Shown here in pieces: positions 6,381-16,462 of a stretch of 64,000 nt of DNA. The notes under the pieces are model-generated. The model was given only the letters and a program-made list of their open reading frames with translations. It did no database searches and had not been told where the DNA came from. Origin of the DNA: Arthrobacter sp. UM1 (GTDB lineage: Bacteria; Actinomycetota; Actinomycetes; Actinomycetales; Micrococcaceae); NCBI RefSeq assembly GCF_020483305.1, contig NZ_JACWAB010000002.1, positions 248,001 to 312,000 of the forward strand, written 5' to 3'. The stretch's first letter is position 1. Each line of letters starts with the position of its first letter. The translations under genes were made by a program, and so were the position numbers.

Positions 6381-7331
6381 ATGCACACCCACCGCCGGAC
6401 CTCGAGGCGCCGAACCGCTCCGGCCGCGTCGCGCCTGGAGGCCCGGGGAGCCCCGACGTGCCGCCCCGCCACGGCCGAGCCGCGCCCCGCGGCGGTGGCG
6501 CTGCGGTGGGAGATCGGGATCGTCCTGGCGCTCTCGCTCGGCAAGTCCGCCGTCTACTCGCTCCTGGATCTGGCCAATGCGCTCTCCAAGGGAGGCCTCA
6601 AGGGACAGAGCGTCGCCCTCAACGCCCGCGCCTCGGCCGTGCCGCTCATCGACGCCCTGTACCAGCTCGCGGGCATCGTGTTCTCGCTGGCGCCGGTGGC
6701 GCTCGTCGTCTTCCTCCTCTGGCGGGAAGGCCCCAGCCTGAGAGCTGCCTTCGCCAAGCTCGGTCTTCCCGCGGCGCCGTGGGCCGGCGCCTCGGCGGGA
6801 GCCACGACGGCGCCCGCCAAACCCGCAGGCCCGACGGCGCCCGCCCGTCCCGCACACACGACAACACCCGCCCGCCCCGCACGAGCCGCACTCCGTGACC
6901 TGGCCCTCGGAGCCGCGCTGTTCCTCGCCGTCGGCCTGGCCACCCTCGCGCTCTACACGGCGGGCCGGGCCGCGGGCCTCACCGCCCGGATCGAGCCGAG
7001 CGGCCTGAGCAGCGCGCCGTGGAACGCCGCCATCCTGGCCCTCTCCGCCGTCCGGCACGGGATCCTCGAGGAGACCGTCATGCTCGGCTACCTGTTCTGG
7101 CGCGGGCGGCAGCTGGCTTGGGCGCCGTGGGCCGTCGTCGTCGGGAGCGCGGTGCTGCGCAGCCTGTACCACGCGTATCAGGGGTTCGGCCCGATGCTCG
7201 GCAATCTGGCCATGGGAATCCTGTTCGGCGCGCTCTACAGTAAGATCGGGAGGTTAGCTCCCCTGATCATCGCCCATGCTCTCCTCGACCTCACGGCGTT
7301 CCTCGCCGCTGACTGGTTCTCGCGCCTCTGA
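6381..7331 (+). CDS. CPBP-family intramembrane glutamic protease-like protein
   Basis: 316 residues, integral membrane. The C-terminal third carries the CPBP (Abi/CAAX protease-like) motifs: paired glutamates E230-E231 in ILEETVMLGYLF, H264 in RSLYHAYQG, and H299 in IIAHALLDL. The arginine of the classical EExxxR motif is replaced by Gly in LGYLF. The N-terminal half has two hydrophobic segments (about 43-65 and 90-115), then an Ala/Pro/Thr-rich linker (about 133-173). CPBP proteins include prenyl-protein proteases and bacteriocin self-immunity proteins; the substrate here is unknown. The start fits a leaderless transcript. Downstream, 92 bp away, lies the ABC exporter. Confidence 0.8.
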   Translation: MHTHRRTSRRRTAPAASRLEARGAPTCRPATAEPRPAAVALRWEIGIVLALSLGKSAVYSLLDLANALSKGGLKGQSVALNARASAVPLIDALYQLAGIVFSLAPVALVVFLLWREGPSLRAAFAKLGLPAAPWAGASAGATTAPAKPAGPTAPARPAHTTTPARPARAALRDLALGAALFLAVGLATLALYTAGRAAGLTARIEPSGLSSAPWNAAILALSAVRHGILEETVMLGYLFWRGRQLAWAPWAVVVGSAVLRSLYHAYQGFGPMLGNLAMGILFGALYSKIGRLAPLIIAHALLDLTAFLAADWFSRL

Positions 7332-12615: not shown

Positions 12616-14301
12616 TCACCCGTACGTGAAGCTGTACAGCGTCAGCCCGGGGCTCGGCTTGAGCCGGAGGGTGCCCTGCTTCTGCTCCGCCTCGGACAGG
12701 ATCCGGAGCGCGTCCGGGGCGCCGTGGATGCGGTGCGTCGTCGTGCCGTGGGGGCCCTCCACGGTGAGGGTGCCCTCGCCGCCGACGACCACCTGCACGG
12801 ACTTCGCGGTGTACCCGAGCACGAGCGAGGCGCCGTCGGCCTGCGGGCTGATGGACTCGTCCTCGATCCTCCACGGGCCGCTCAGCGCGTACGAGTCCGC
12901 GTTGACCGAGCTCACAGCGGGGAACGTGCCGGTGCGGTACTCGGCCTCGCCGGAGTAGAGGCGCTGCCGCTTCGAGCCGAGGTAGGTCTCGGGCGTGATG
13001 CCGCGGCTCTGCGGGGTGTCGTCGCGGACGGAGCTGCCCTCGGCCGGGAGCTTCACGCCGGGGTTCGCCTCGCGCAGGAGCTGCCGGATGAGATGCTCGG
13101 TCTCCTCGTAGTTGCCCTCGCCCACGGAGTAGTGGCGCACGGTGCCCTTCGCGTCCGCGAGGTAGTGCGCGGGCCAGTACCGGTTGGAGAACGCGTCCCA
13201 GGTCTGGAACCTGTTGTCCTGGAAGACGGGGTACTGGATGCCCATGCGCTTCACGGCGCCCTGGACGTTGGCGGCCTCGTGCTCGAACGCGTACTCCGGC
13301 GCGTGCACGCCCACGATCTCCAGGCCCGCCGACTTGTACTTCTTGTACCACTCGTTGAGATGCGGGATGGAGCGCTGGCAGTTGATGCAGGAGTACGCCC
13401 AGAAGTCCACGAGCGTCACCTTGCCCTTGAGGGACTCGTTCGTCGGCGCAGAAGCGGCGTTGAAGGTCTGGCCGCCGGGGGTGAGGCGGGGGAGCGGCCC
13501 GCAGTCGTGCAGTCCGGCGCCGCCCTCGGGGCAGTCTTTGAGCTTGCCGTCCGCGCCGCCGCCAGAGCTGAGCGCGCCGCGCACGCTCTCGTCTCCGCCC
13601 ACGGCCTGCTGGAGCCCGTGCGTGTAGTCCGGCAGGGCGCGCTGGAGCTTCGCGGGCGCGTCGAGGAGGAGCCCGACGGCGAGCCCGATGAGCAGCACGC
13701 CCGCCGTGACCCGCACCGCCCGCTGCCGCTTGCGGAAGGCCTTCATCCGCTCGGCGAGCCCGCGCCCGGCGAGGGCGAACGCGAGGAGCGGGATCGCCGT
13801 GCCGATGGCGAACGACGCCGTGAGCACCACGGTCTCCCACCCGATCCGCCCGGTGGCCCCGGCCACGGTGATGGCCGCGAGGACCGGCCCGGCGCAGGGC
13901 ACATAGACCGTGCCGAGCGCGAGGCCCAGCACGAATCCGCCCCGGTCTGAGGAGACGTGCTTGCGGGGCAGCCAGGAGAACGGCTTCTCGAGCCATTCCT
14001 CGAGCTTGGGCACGATCATTCCGAGGCCGACGAGCACGAGCACGGCGATGCCCGCGATCCGCAGCGCGTCCTGCGGCAGTCCGAGCGCGTTGAGCAGGAG
14101 CGATCCGAGCAGCGTCACCACGCTGAAGCTGAGGACGAGTCCCGCCACGATGAGGTACGGGCGCGTCCGGGACGGCTTGCCCTCGGCGCCGTCGCGGGAG
14201 GCCCCGCCGGAGACGAAGAGGACGGGCAGCATCGGCAGGATGCACGGCGAGATGCCGGTGATGAGGCCGCCGAGCAGGCCGATGAGGGCCAGGGACAGCA
14301 T
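12616..14301 (-). CDS. dipZ: DipZ-like cytochrome c biogenesis/thioredoxin fusion protein
   Basis: 561 residues. The N-terminal CcdA-type domain (about 1-215, six hydrophobic segments) has its paired cysteines in ISPCILP (C20) and YVPCAGP (C136). A TlpA/thioredoxin domain outside the membrane carries C305-I-N-C308 in [10 protein letters not shown]-terminal beta-rich domain (about 430-561) resembles the module that ends mycobacterial DipZ. It should carry electrons from the cytoplasm to extracytoplasmic thiols. The ATG has a strong GGAAGGAG upstream. It is divergent from the lipoprotein-sigK-rskA genes; mycobacteria keep dipZ with the SigK-controlled mpt83/mpt70 genes, so shared control is plausible. 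Confidence 0.9.
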
Positions 14302-14506
14302 GAGGGGCTCCTTCCGTCGGGACGCGAACTGCGAGGGGTTCGCAGCCGGACGGCCCACGGATTGCGGCCCCTGAAGAGCCCCAGCTGAGCCCCAGCTGCC
14401 TCCCAGGAACCCCGCCAGGTCAGGCGGCGAGCCCCTCGGCGAGCCCCGCGGCGGGCCACTCCACGACCCGCTCCGCGAGACCAGGCGGCGAACAGCGGAA
14501 AAACTT

Positions 14507-14534
14507 CCAATCCGCCCCGCCGGGCGCGCCGAAC
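14507..14534 (+). promoter_or_regulatory. Candidate SigK-type promoter upstream of the lipoprotein
   Basis: CCAATCC (14507-14513) and CCGAAC (14529-14534) are separated by 15 nt. The reported M. tuberculosis SigK promoter is CCATCC-N17-CCGAAT, so the words are close but the spacer is short. It lies 62 nt before the lipoprotein ATG, fitting autoregulation of lipoprotein-sigK-rskA. The rest of 14302-14596 holds only a small GCGAAC/GTTCGC hairpin in the dipZ leader. Confidence 0.3.
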
Positions 14535-14596: not shown

Positions 14597-14938
14597 ATGA
14601 CTGTCTCACCCGTCTCGACCACCGCCCGCAAGATCGCTGCCGGAGCCGTCGGCGCGGTCCTCGCCCTCGGCCTCGCGGCATGCGGCGGCCAGGACAAGGG
14701 CTCGGACAAGCCCTCGATGGACAAGAGCCCGTCCATGCAGAAGACGGACGGGGCCATGGAGAAGAGCCCGTCCATGGACAAGTCCCCCTCGATGAAGAAG
14801 TCGGACGGCGCGATGGAGAAGTCGCCGTCCATGGAGAAGAGCGACGGCGCCATGCAGAAGTCGCCGTCGATGGAGAAGTCCGGCGGATCCATGGAAAAAT
14901 CTCCTTCGATGAACAAGAGCACAGGGGCGGGGCAGTAG
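14597..14938 (+). CDS. Met-x-Lys repeat lipoprotein in the SigK locus
   Basis: 113 residues. A signal peptide ends in a lipobox (GLAAC, C29). The mature part is low-complexity: eleven MxK motifs (MDK, MQK, MEK, MKK, MNK) spaced 5-8 residues apart, mostly in the frame SPSMxKS or DGAMxKS. It lacks aromatic residues and any fold I recognise. The pattern recalls the small secreted MXKDX-repeat proteins, but with Ser in place of Asp. Regular methionines could bind copper or act as an oxidisable sink; this is inference. The Shine-Dalgarno is GGGAGAAG. In mycobacteria this slot, next to dipZ and the SigK system, holds the fasciclin lipoprotein MPT83. It probably shares a transcript with sigK. Confidence 0.85.
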
Positions 14939-15000: not shown

Positions 15001-15531
15001 ATGCTCGCGCACCGCACCGCTCAGGGGGACGAGGAGGCGTTCGCCGGCCTCTACGACGCTCTCTCCCCGCTCGTCTACTCGATCTGCAAGCGCGTCCTCG
15101 TGGACGCGGGCCTCGCGGAGGAGGTGTCCCAGGAGGTGTTCGTGACGCTGTGGCAGCAGGCCGCCCGCTTCGACGCGGAGCGCGGCAGCGTCCGCTCCTG
15201 GGTGGCCGTCATGGCCCATCGCCGGGCCGTGGACCGGGTCCGGGCCTCGCAGTCGGCTCGGGAGCGCGAGGAGCGCGTGGGCCGGGAGGCGCCGACGGTC
15301 TATGAGCACGTCGAGGAGTCCGCCGTCATGGCCGTTGAGGGCGAATCGGTCCTCCGGGCCCTCGGCCGCCTCTCGGATGCGCAGCGCCGCGCCATCGAGC
15401 TGGCCTACTATGGCGGCCTCACGTACTCGGAGGTCGCGGCGGCCACGGGCTCGCCGCTCGGAACAGTCAAGACCAGGATTCGCGACGGCCTCAGCCGCTT
15501 GCGACTCGAGTTGGGAGGAAGCCGTGGATGA
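15001..15531 (+). CDS. sigK: ECF RNA polymerase sigma factor SigK
   Basis: 176 residues. The sigma-70 region 2 spans about 8-75 ([43 protein letters not shown]) and region 4 about 112-168 ([30 protein letters not shown]). The [11 protein letters not shown] and [10 protein letters not shown] words are characteristic of SigK. The first ATG in frame is at 15001, preceded by GGAGG at a wide spacing; the homologous N-terminus of mycobacterial SigK extends slightly further, but no upstream start codon exists after the lipoprotein. It overlaps rskA by 8 bp. The anti-sigma factor and the dipZ context support the name. Confidence 0.9.
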
Positions 15532-16462
15532 CCGACAGCGCGATCTGACGGGCGCCTACGCGCTGGACGCCCTCACCGAGTCCGAGGCCCGCGAGTTCGA
15601 GCGCCACGCCGATCCGGCCGCCCGGGCCGAGGCCCGCGACCTCGCCGAGACCGCCTCCCGCCTCGCCGAGACGGCGCCCCTCGAGTCCCCGCCGGCGCGA
15701 CTGCGCTCGAGCGTCCTCGCCGCGATCCGTGAGACTCCCCAGGAGCGTCCCGCTGAGAACGACGACGACGGCGCGCGCCCCGCCCAGCGCGGAGGCGGAT
15801 CCTCGGCCCTGCCTGCGCCGGAGCGGGAGGCGGCGGTCTCGCCCGTTCCCGCCGGCAGCCCGGTCCGCAGCACCGCCGGCAGTCCGGCGCGCAGCACCGC
15901 GGAGGAGCCCCGGCCCGCTCGCGCCGTTCCCGGCGCGTCCTCCAGGCCGCCTCGGGCCCGGAGGCTGAGGGCCCGTGCGGGCGCCCTCCTTGCGGCGCTC
16001 TGCATCGCCGCGGGCGGCTTCGGCGCCGGAGCGGTCTACGGCGGCAAGACGGCGGAGCGGCAGGCGGCGAGCGCGTCGTCGTCGGCCTCCCCGGGAGCGC
16101 AGGCGGAGGGGAGCTCCGGCGCCATGATGGCCAAGATCGGCGCGTCCGCAGACGCGGCGATGGTCTCGGGGCGGATGGACGGCTCGAACGTCTCGGTGAC
16201 CTACTCGAAGGACCTGGACATGGCGGTGAGCAACAGCATGCTGCCCGCGCCGCCCAAGGGGAAGGTCTACGTCCTCTGGCTCTTCGACGAACAGGGCAAC
16301 GTGACGGCCGTCGGCGAGCTCGGGGCGGCTCCCAACGGGCACACGCCGGCGCTCGGCGAGCTGAAGGGCGGCCTGACGGGCGCCCGCGAGTTCGGCATCA
16401 CCGTGGAGAGGCCCGGCGCGGTCACCCCGAGCTACAAGCCGTTCATGCTCGCGAAGGCGTAG
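15524..16462 (+). CDS. rskA: Anti-sigma-K factor RskA
   Basis: 312 residues. The N-terminal cytoplasmic sigma-binding domain (about 1-75, [19 protein letters not shown]) is followed by a long Pro/Ala/Ser-rich linker (about 80-148), one transmembrane helix (about 150-171), and an extracytoplasmic RskA C-terminal domain (about 200-312) with [13 protein letters not shown] and a [13 protein letters not shown] end. It should hold SigK at the membrane until cleaved on an outside signal. A GTG start with GGGAGGA upstream overlaps the sigK stop, so it is translationally coupled. The linker is unusually long. The regulated-proteolysis protease RseP lies in this window at 44.7 kb. Confidence 0.9.

Follow-up and report, generated by a model that had tools for sequence, protein, structure and literature searches.

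The SigK island and its lipoprotein

In the window, the whole analysed stretch of 64,000 nucleotides from Arthrobacter sp. UM1, a short lipoprotein gene lies between dipZ and a divergent sigK-rskA pair, in the order dipZ (minus strand), lipoprotein, sigK and rskA (all plus strand). The features of the island are as follows.

12616–14301, minus strand: dipZ, with a CcdA/DsbD-type membrane domain (Cys20, Cys136), an extracytoplasmic thioredoxin domain (CINC) and a Thioredoxin_10 domain, assigned from Pfam, PDB and the list of cysteines
14338–14364, minus strand: SigK-type promoter motif CAATCC-N-CGAAC of dipZ, ending 37 nt before the ATG
14507–14534, plus strand: SigK-type promoter motif CCAATCC-N-CGAAC of lipoprotein-sigK-rskA, ending 63 nt before the ATG
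14597–14938, plus strand: Met-x-Lys repeat lipoprotein of 113 aa, an ORF with ATG start
14597–14680, plus strand: signal peptide up to the lipobox LAA/C, residues 1–28, read from the sequence
14681–14935, plus strand: mature part, 85 aa from the lipid-carrying Cys29, with 11 MxK motifs by residue count
15001–15531, plus strand: sigK, ECF sigma factor (NCBIfam SigK, 7.6e-65; PDB 4nqw, 7.7e-39)
15524–16462, plus strand: rskA, membrane anti-sigma factor (Pfam RskA_C, PF10099, 50.1 bits, cutoff 29.4)

The lipoprotein ORF comprises 113 codons with a GC3 of 0.90 and is preceded by the purine-rich, RBS-like sequence GGGAAAGGGAG. The lipobox LGLAA/C, read by eye, places the lipid anchor on Cys29 and identifies the product as a bacterial lipoprotein. 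Eleven of the 85 mature residues are methionines, and all eleven stand within an MxK motif. The repeat S-P-S-M-x-K follows the lipobox with a Met-to-Met spacing of 6, 7, 6, 6, 7, 6, 7, 6, 7 and 6 residues. In 20,000 shuffles of the mature residues the MxK motif occurred 1.8 times on average and at most 7 times. Synonymous codons vary between the units (serine as AGC, TCC, TCG or TCT; proline as CCG, CCC or CCT), thus the motif is maintained at the protein level and does not stem from a fresh DNA duplication. Shuffling and codon variation together rule out a chance origin of the repeat, and the lipoprotein with a mature part of eleven MxK motifs, as it was first described, is real. The gene is present in one copy in the 2.39-Mb genome. 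Searches of the protein against Pfam and NCBIfam gave nothing above cutoff. The MXKDX pentapeptide repeat proteins (TIGR02953) are likewise short and secreted and consist of M-x-K repeats, whereas the window protein has S-P-S-M-x-K units spaced by 6–7 residues behind a lipobox. It was absent among the matches to the TIGR02953 model up to an E-value of 10, and a relative scored 7.5 bits against a curated cutoff of 41; judged by this model, membership in the family is ruled out.

The neighbouring genes were assigned with solved structures and family models. DipZ has the CcdA-type membrane domain, the CxxC thioredoxin domain and the Thioredoxin_10 domain that characterize this protein, and matches the solved DipZ structures PDB 5cyy (4e-84) and 2hyx. 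The sigma factor has the Sigma70 regions 2 and 4; its best family is NCBIfam PRK09646 SigK with 218.2 bits, just under the cutoff of 226, and its best PDB match is M. tuberculosis SigK (4nqw). The GTG start of rskA overlaps the end of sigK, and the encoded protein combines an RskA_C ectodomain, of which 5 % is methionine, with one transmembrane segment. Neither a Sigma-70 promoter nor a terminator was found between the lipoprotein gene and sigK. The redox sensitivity of mycobacterial SigK, which the preliminary description had carried over to this locus, finds no support here: the DRVRC and QRQC motifs of the M. tuberculosis protein align to DRVRA and QRRA, so that alanine stands in place of both cysteines, and the only cysteine of this SigK lies in region 2. 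The Cys133/Cys183 pair is not universal in the family; it is conserved in 94 % of ECF18 and only 56 % of ECF19 (PMC7509140).

SigK-type promoters and the candidate regulon

The motif was assigned to SigK by our comparison of related actinobacterial SigK loci, in which CCAATCC-N-CTCCGAA(C/T) precedes FAS1 lipoproteins, dipZ, sigK and a few other genes. The mycobacterial SigK promoter is reportedly of the CCATCC/CGAAT type. The pattern CAATCC-N14-17-CGAAY has exactly two sites in the 2.39-Mb genome, one before the lipoprotein and one before dipZ; a reversed control pattern had none in the whole genome. The natural reading of these sites is a tiny regulon that would consist of dipZ and lipoprotein-sigK-rskA. 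The lipoprotein is very probably regulated by SigK, and it is apparently switched on together with DipZ by the SigK/RskA stress switch. Its link to SigK now rests on the promoter motif as well as on position.

In other Actinomycetota, a SigK-type motif was also observed before a membrane-anchored molybdopterin oxidoreductase of the PF00174 family (L014 at 9069, L023 at 6354, L035 at 2489, L045 at 6368 and L049 at 6346). This enzyme has membrane segments and belongs to the superfamily of MsrP.

The fasciclin slot and recurrence of Met-rich lipoproteins

Two Sinomonas loci (L002, L004) show the same gene order. Their lipoproteins agree with the window protein in slot, orientation, promoter, lipobox and Met-rich tail, but have a fasciclin (FAS1) domain of some 140 aa behind the tail. 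A FAS1 lipoprotein occupies this slot in Sinomonas and other Micrococcaceae; the fasciclin domain (PF02469) was found neither in the window lipoprotein nor anywhere else in the genome. The view of a Met-x-Lys lipoprotein in place of a fasciclin lipoprotein is borne out by the shared slot. Dissimilarities to the mycobacterial SigK regulon (mpt83, mpt70, dipZ, mpt53), which likewise has dipZ and a lipoprotein under SigK/RskA, are the Met-repeat lipoprotein without a fasciclin domain, the lack of the SigK redox cysteines, and the arrangement of sigK-rskA, dipZ and lipoprotein in one cluster. Two genomes of the same genus contained neither a close sigK nor the lipoprotein. Thus the locus is patchy, and the nearest comparison is at the level of the family Micrococcaceae (f1), several loci of which are identical to Sinomonas, Glutamicibacter and Arthrobacter loci.

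A profile built from four such lipoproteins detected relatives across the order, strongest in a second family (f3) and weaker but clear in a third (f9). The f3 loci resemble those of Actinomyces and Schaalia (L048, L069, L080, L081), a likeness that gives a tentative family assignment. When dipZ loci of f3 and sigK loci of f9 were surveyed, roughly half of the 25 in f3 and the majority of the 30 read in f9 had a short, stand-alone Met-rich lipoprotein, which the motif usually preceded. A set of 42 distinct lipoproteins, the window protein included, was selected by an upstream motif, a methionine content of at least 8 % and a length below 140 aa. They average 16 % methionine, mostly 5–7 residues apart. 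Motif and methionine content were selection criteria, hence both traits are selected ones and the finding is that the slot is filled in three families. A stand-alone Met-rich lipoprotein in the SigK regulon thus recurs in at least three families (f1, f3 and f9). The preliminary description knew of no report of this arrangement; this holds within the literature searched, but the arrangement is not unique, as it is widespread in f3 and f9. A position far from sigK in relatives had been named as evidence against a functional link. Such a position was found in two genomes (L119, L122), yet the motif accompanies the gene there. Around these relocated copies no msr gene was recognised by eye, and a tie to msr genes by neighbourhood was rejected.

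Five Actinomyces-like loci (L058, L065, L157, L158, L160) have a Met-poor, disordered lipoprotein of the GGDQQGG type beside dipZ, without a SigK motif. In two of the five genomes, a Met-rich lipoprotein preceded by the motif is encoded at another site. Judged from these sequences, methionine richness tracks the promoter motif and not the location.

Met-rich tails were also present on the FAS1 lipoproteins with a SigK motif. The 39 residues that follow the lipid cysteine (residues 2–40) contain 8.4 % methionine, compared with 1.5 % in 33 other lipoproteins, a background called automatically from the fetched loci that includes some doubtful ORFs. Three or more methionines occurred in this tail in 29 of 42 SigK-motif FAS1 lipoproteins and in 1 of the 33 others (Fisher p 1.7e-9). 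A 400-kb genome sample served as background only; a ranking of its ORFs by methionine density was uninformative, as antisense frames dominated. The Met-rich tail seems to be the element common to the lipoproteins of the putative regulon, and in the window it makes up the whole protein.

The RskA ectodomains of f9 (L173–L202) mostly contain 8–14 % methionine, compared with 1–3 % in most FAS1 lineages, and may represent a Met-based sensor.

A possible methionine sink in the cell envelope

We cautiously favour the interpretation that the lipoprotein is a core output of the SigK/RskA switch for envelope stress and acts as a sink whose methionines are sacrificed to oxidants in the envelope, with DipZ as supplier of electrons. 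An oxidant in the envelope would lead to the loss of RskA, as suggested by work on mycobacteria, and SigK would then transcribe dipZ and lipoprotein-sigK-rskA from the two matching divergent promoters. The lipoprotein would form a membrane-tethered disordered tail exposing eleven methionines, one per 6–7 residues, which would be oxidised instead of those of other envelope proteins. Candidate oxidants are of the hypochlorous acid type or other methionine-directed compounds. DipZ may pass electrons through the membrane to repair thiols and possibly also to regenerate the sink.

The closest precedents are MrpX/YedYZ with SigF/NrsF in Azospira suillum and BcrX/BcrQP with BcrS/AbcS in Brucella, which resemble the window locus in that an ECF sigma/anti-sigma pair lies beside a small secreted, Met-rich and Lys-containing repeat peptide. 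According to the published reports, the ECF-controlled MrpX and BcrX are sacrificial hypochlorite scavengers recycled by an MsrPQ/YedYZ-type reductase (PMC8315932, PMC4623255). Both systems would share a role in envelope redox defence with the one proposed here. The sigma factors of these two systems come from a different ECF group, which in Brucella is ECF16, and have MsrPQ as partner; the peptide is periplasmic and of the MXKDX family, whereas the window locus has SigK/RskA, a lipid-anchored peptide and DipZ in place of MsrPQ. That this locus, too, places a secreted, Met-rich peptide under the control of an ECF sigma/anti-sigma pair is judged from sequence and promoter motif only. The lipoprotein plausibly works like MrpX and BcrX, tethered to the membrane. 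A dedicated envelope methionine sulfoxide reductase was not found in a genome search covering PF00174, MsrA and MsrB: the genome has no PF00174 gene, and its one MsrA and one MsrB show no signal peptide and look cytoplasmic. Thus a cycle like that of MrpX and Msr is incomplete and recycling is unproven. The motif before the PF00174 molybdo-enzyme of other Actinomycetota would fit a recycling of the sink, but this gene is missing here. In support of the sink stand the two-site motif, the replacement in the slot, the recurrence in three families, a methionine spacing kept across large differences in net charge, the Met-rich tails on FAS1 lipoproteins and, in f9, on a thioredoxin domain, the motif before PF00174 enzymes of other Actinomycetota and the precedent of MrpX and BcrX; it is weakened by the failure to find an exported Msr, by the Met-poor lipoproteins beside dipZ in five loci and by the fact that no msr gene was recognised near the relocated copies.

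Alternatively, the lipoprotein could be a signal buffer: oxidised together with a Met-rich RskA ectodomain, it would adjust the stress switch by Met-based sensing more than it would shield the envelope. The median methionine content of the RskA ectodomain was 11.3 % at loci with a stand-alone Met-rich lipoprotein versus 2.5 % at loci with FAS1, while the cytoplasmic part had 1.5–1.9 % in both groups. The methionine contents of lipoprotein and ectodomain correlated with a raw rho of 0.65, driven mainly by f9; after phylogenetic contrasts the association was not significant (r 0.09, p 0.43; p 0.046 in the rank version), and coupled evolution of the two was rejected as a finding. We regard the signal buffer as unlikely, and Met-based sensing by RskA is only a lead. 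A passive spacer or an electrostatic, wall-embedded lipoprotein, in which the disordered tail matters and the methionines are incidental, would agree with the Met-poor low-complexity proteins beside dipZ, but these copies are without the SigK motif. In the motif-bearing set, moreover, the net charge ranges from +2 in the window protein to −44 in f9 while the methionine spacing is kept, so the methionines are conserved and not a charged motif. Such a spacer is quite unlikely.

The preliminary description had noted that regularly spaced methionines are common in copper-binding and oxidation-sensitive proteins and had considered a thiol/copper stress circuit plausible. Copper systems include Met-rich envelope proteins, and copper damages the thiols kept by DipZ-type proteins; spaced methionines might then bind Cu(I) or silver at the surface, with SigK as a metal-stress circuit. 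However, the mature peptide has no histidine, no cysteine other than the anchor, and no MxM, MxxM or HxM, and neither motif site of the genome precedes a metal-transport gene. The 42 lipoproteins contain no cysteine besides the anchor, one MxM and no MxxM; MM pairs and some histidines are present in those of f9. A copper-binding protein with typical Met motifs is rejected, and we judge chelation of copper or silver in general improbable. That the protein is a relic, a leftover tail of a FAS1 lipoprotein decaying or expanding neutrally, is very improbable in spite of the shared slot, the similar lipobox region and the Met-rich tails of FAS1 relatives, given the intact RBS, lipobox and promoter, a motif kept despite synonymous drift between units, and parallel stand-alone forms in many species.

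As to the signal of SigK and the reason for its control of MPT83/MPT70 and DipZ, the shared Met-rich tail, together with the replacement of the fasciclin protein by the tail alone in three families, points to methionine oxidation in the envelope. If the sink proposed for the window lipoprotein is true, ECF-controlled sacrificial methionine peptides would extend from Proteobacteria to Gram-positive bacteria. A broader and doubtful generalization would see the actinobacterial SigK/RskA as a methionine-oxidation switch, in which a Met-rich RskA ectodomain would sense methionine-directed oxidants and the core output would be sacrificial Met-rich tails (stand-alone, FAS1-linked or thioredoxin-linked) recharged by electrons from DipZ/CcdA.

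Further genes with a SigK-type motif were observed in the compared loci. In two f9 loci, a gene beside a CcdA-like gene encodes a lipoprotein that joins a Met-rich tail to a thioredoxin domain (L225, 8278–9042; L226, 7788–8444), and the CcdA-like gene of L226 has its own SigK-type motif at 6617. The motif also precedes small membrane proteins near sigK-rskA (L037 at 3501, L088 at 2849, L099 at 2961 and others); the protein of L037 is a DUF4383 protein, and the others look alike.
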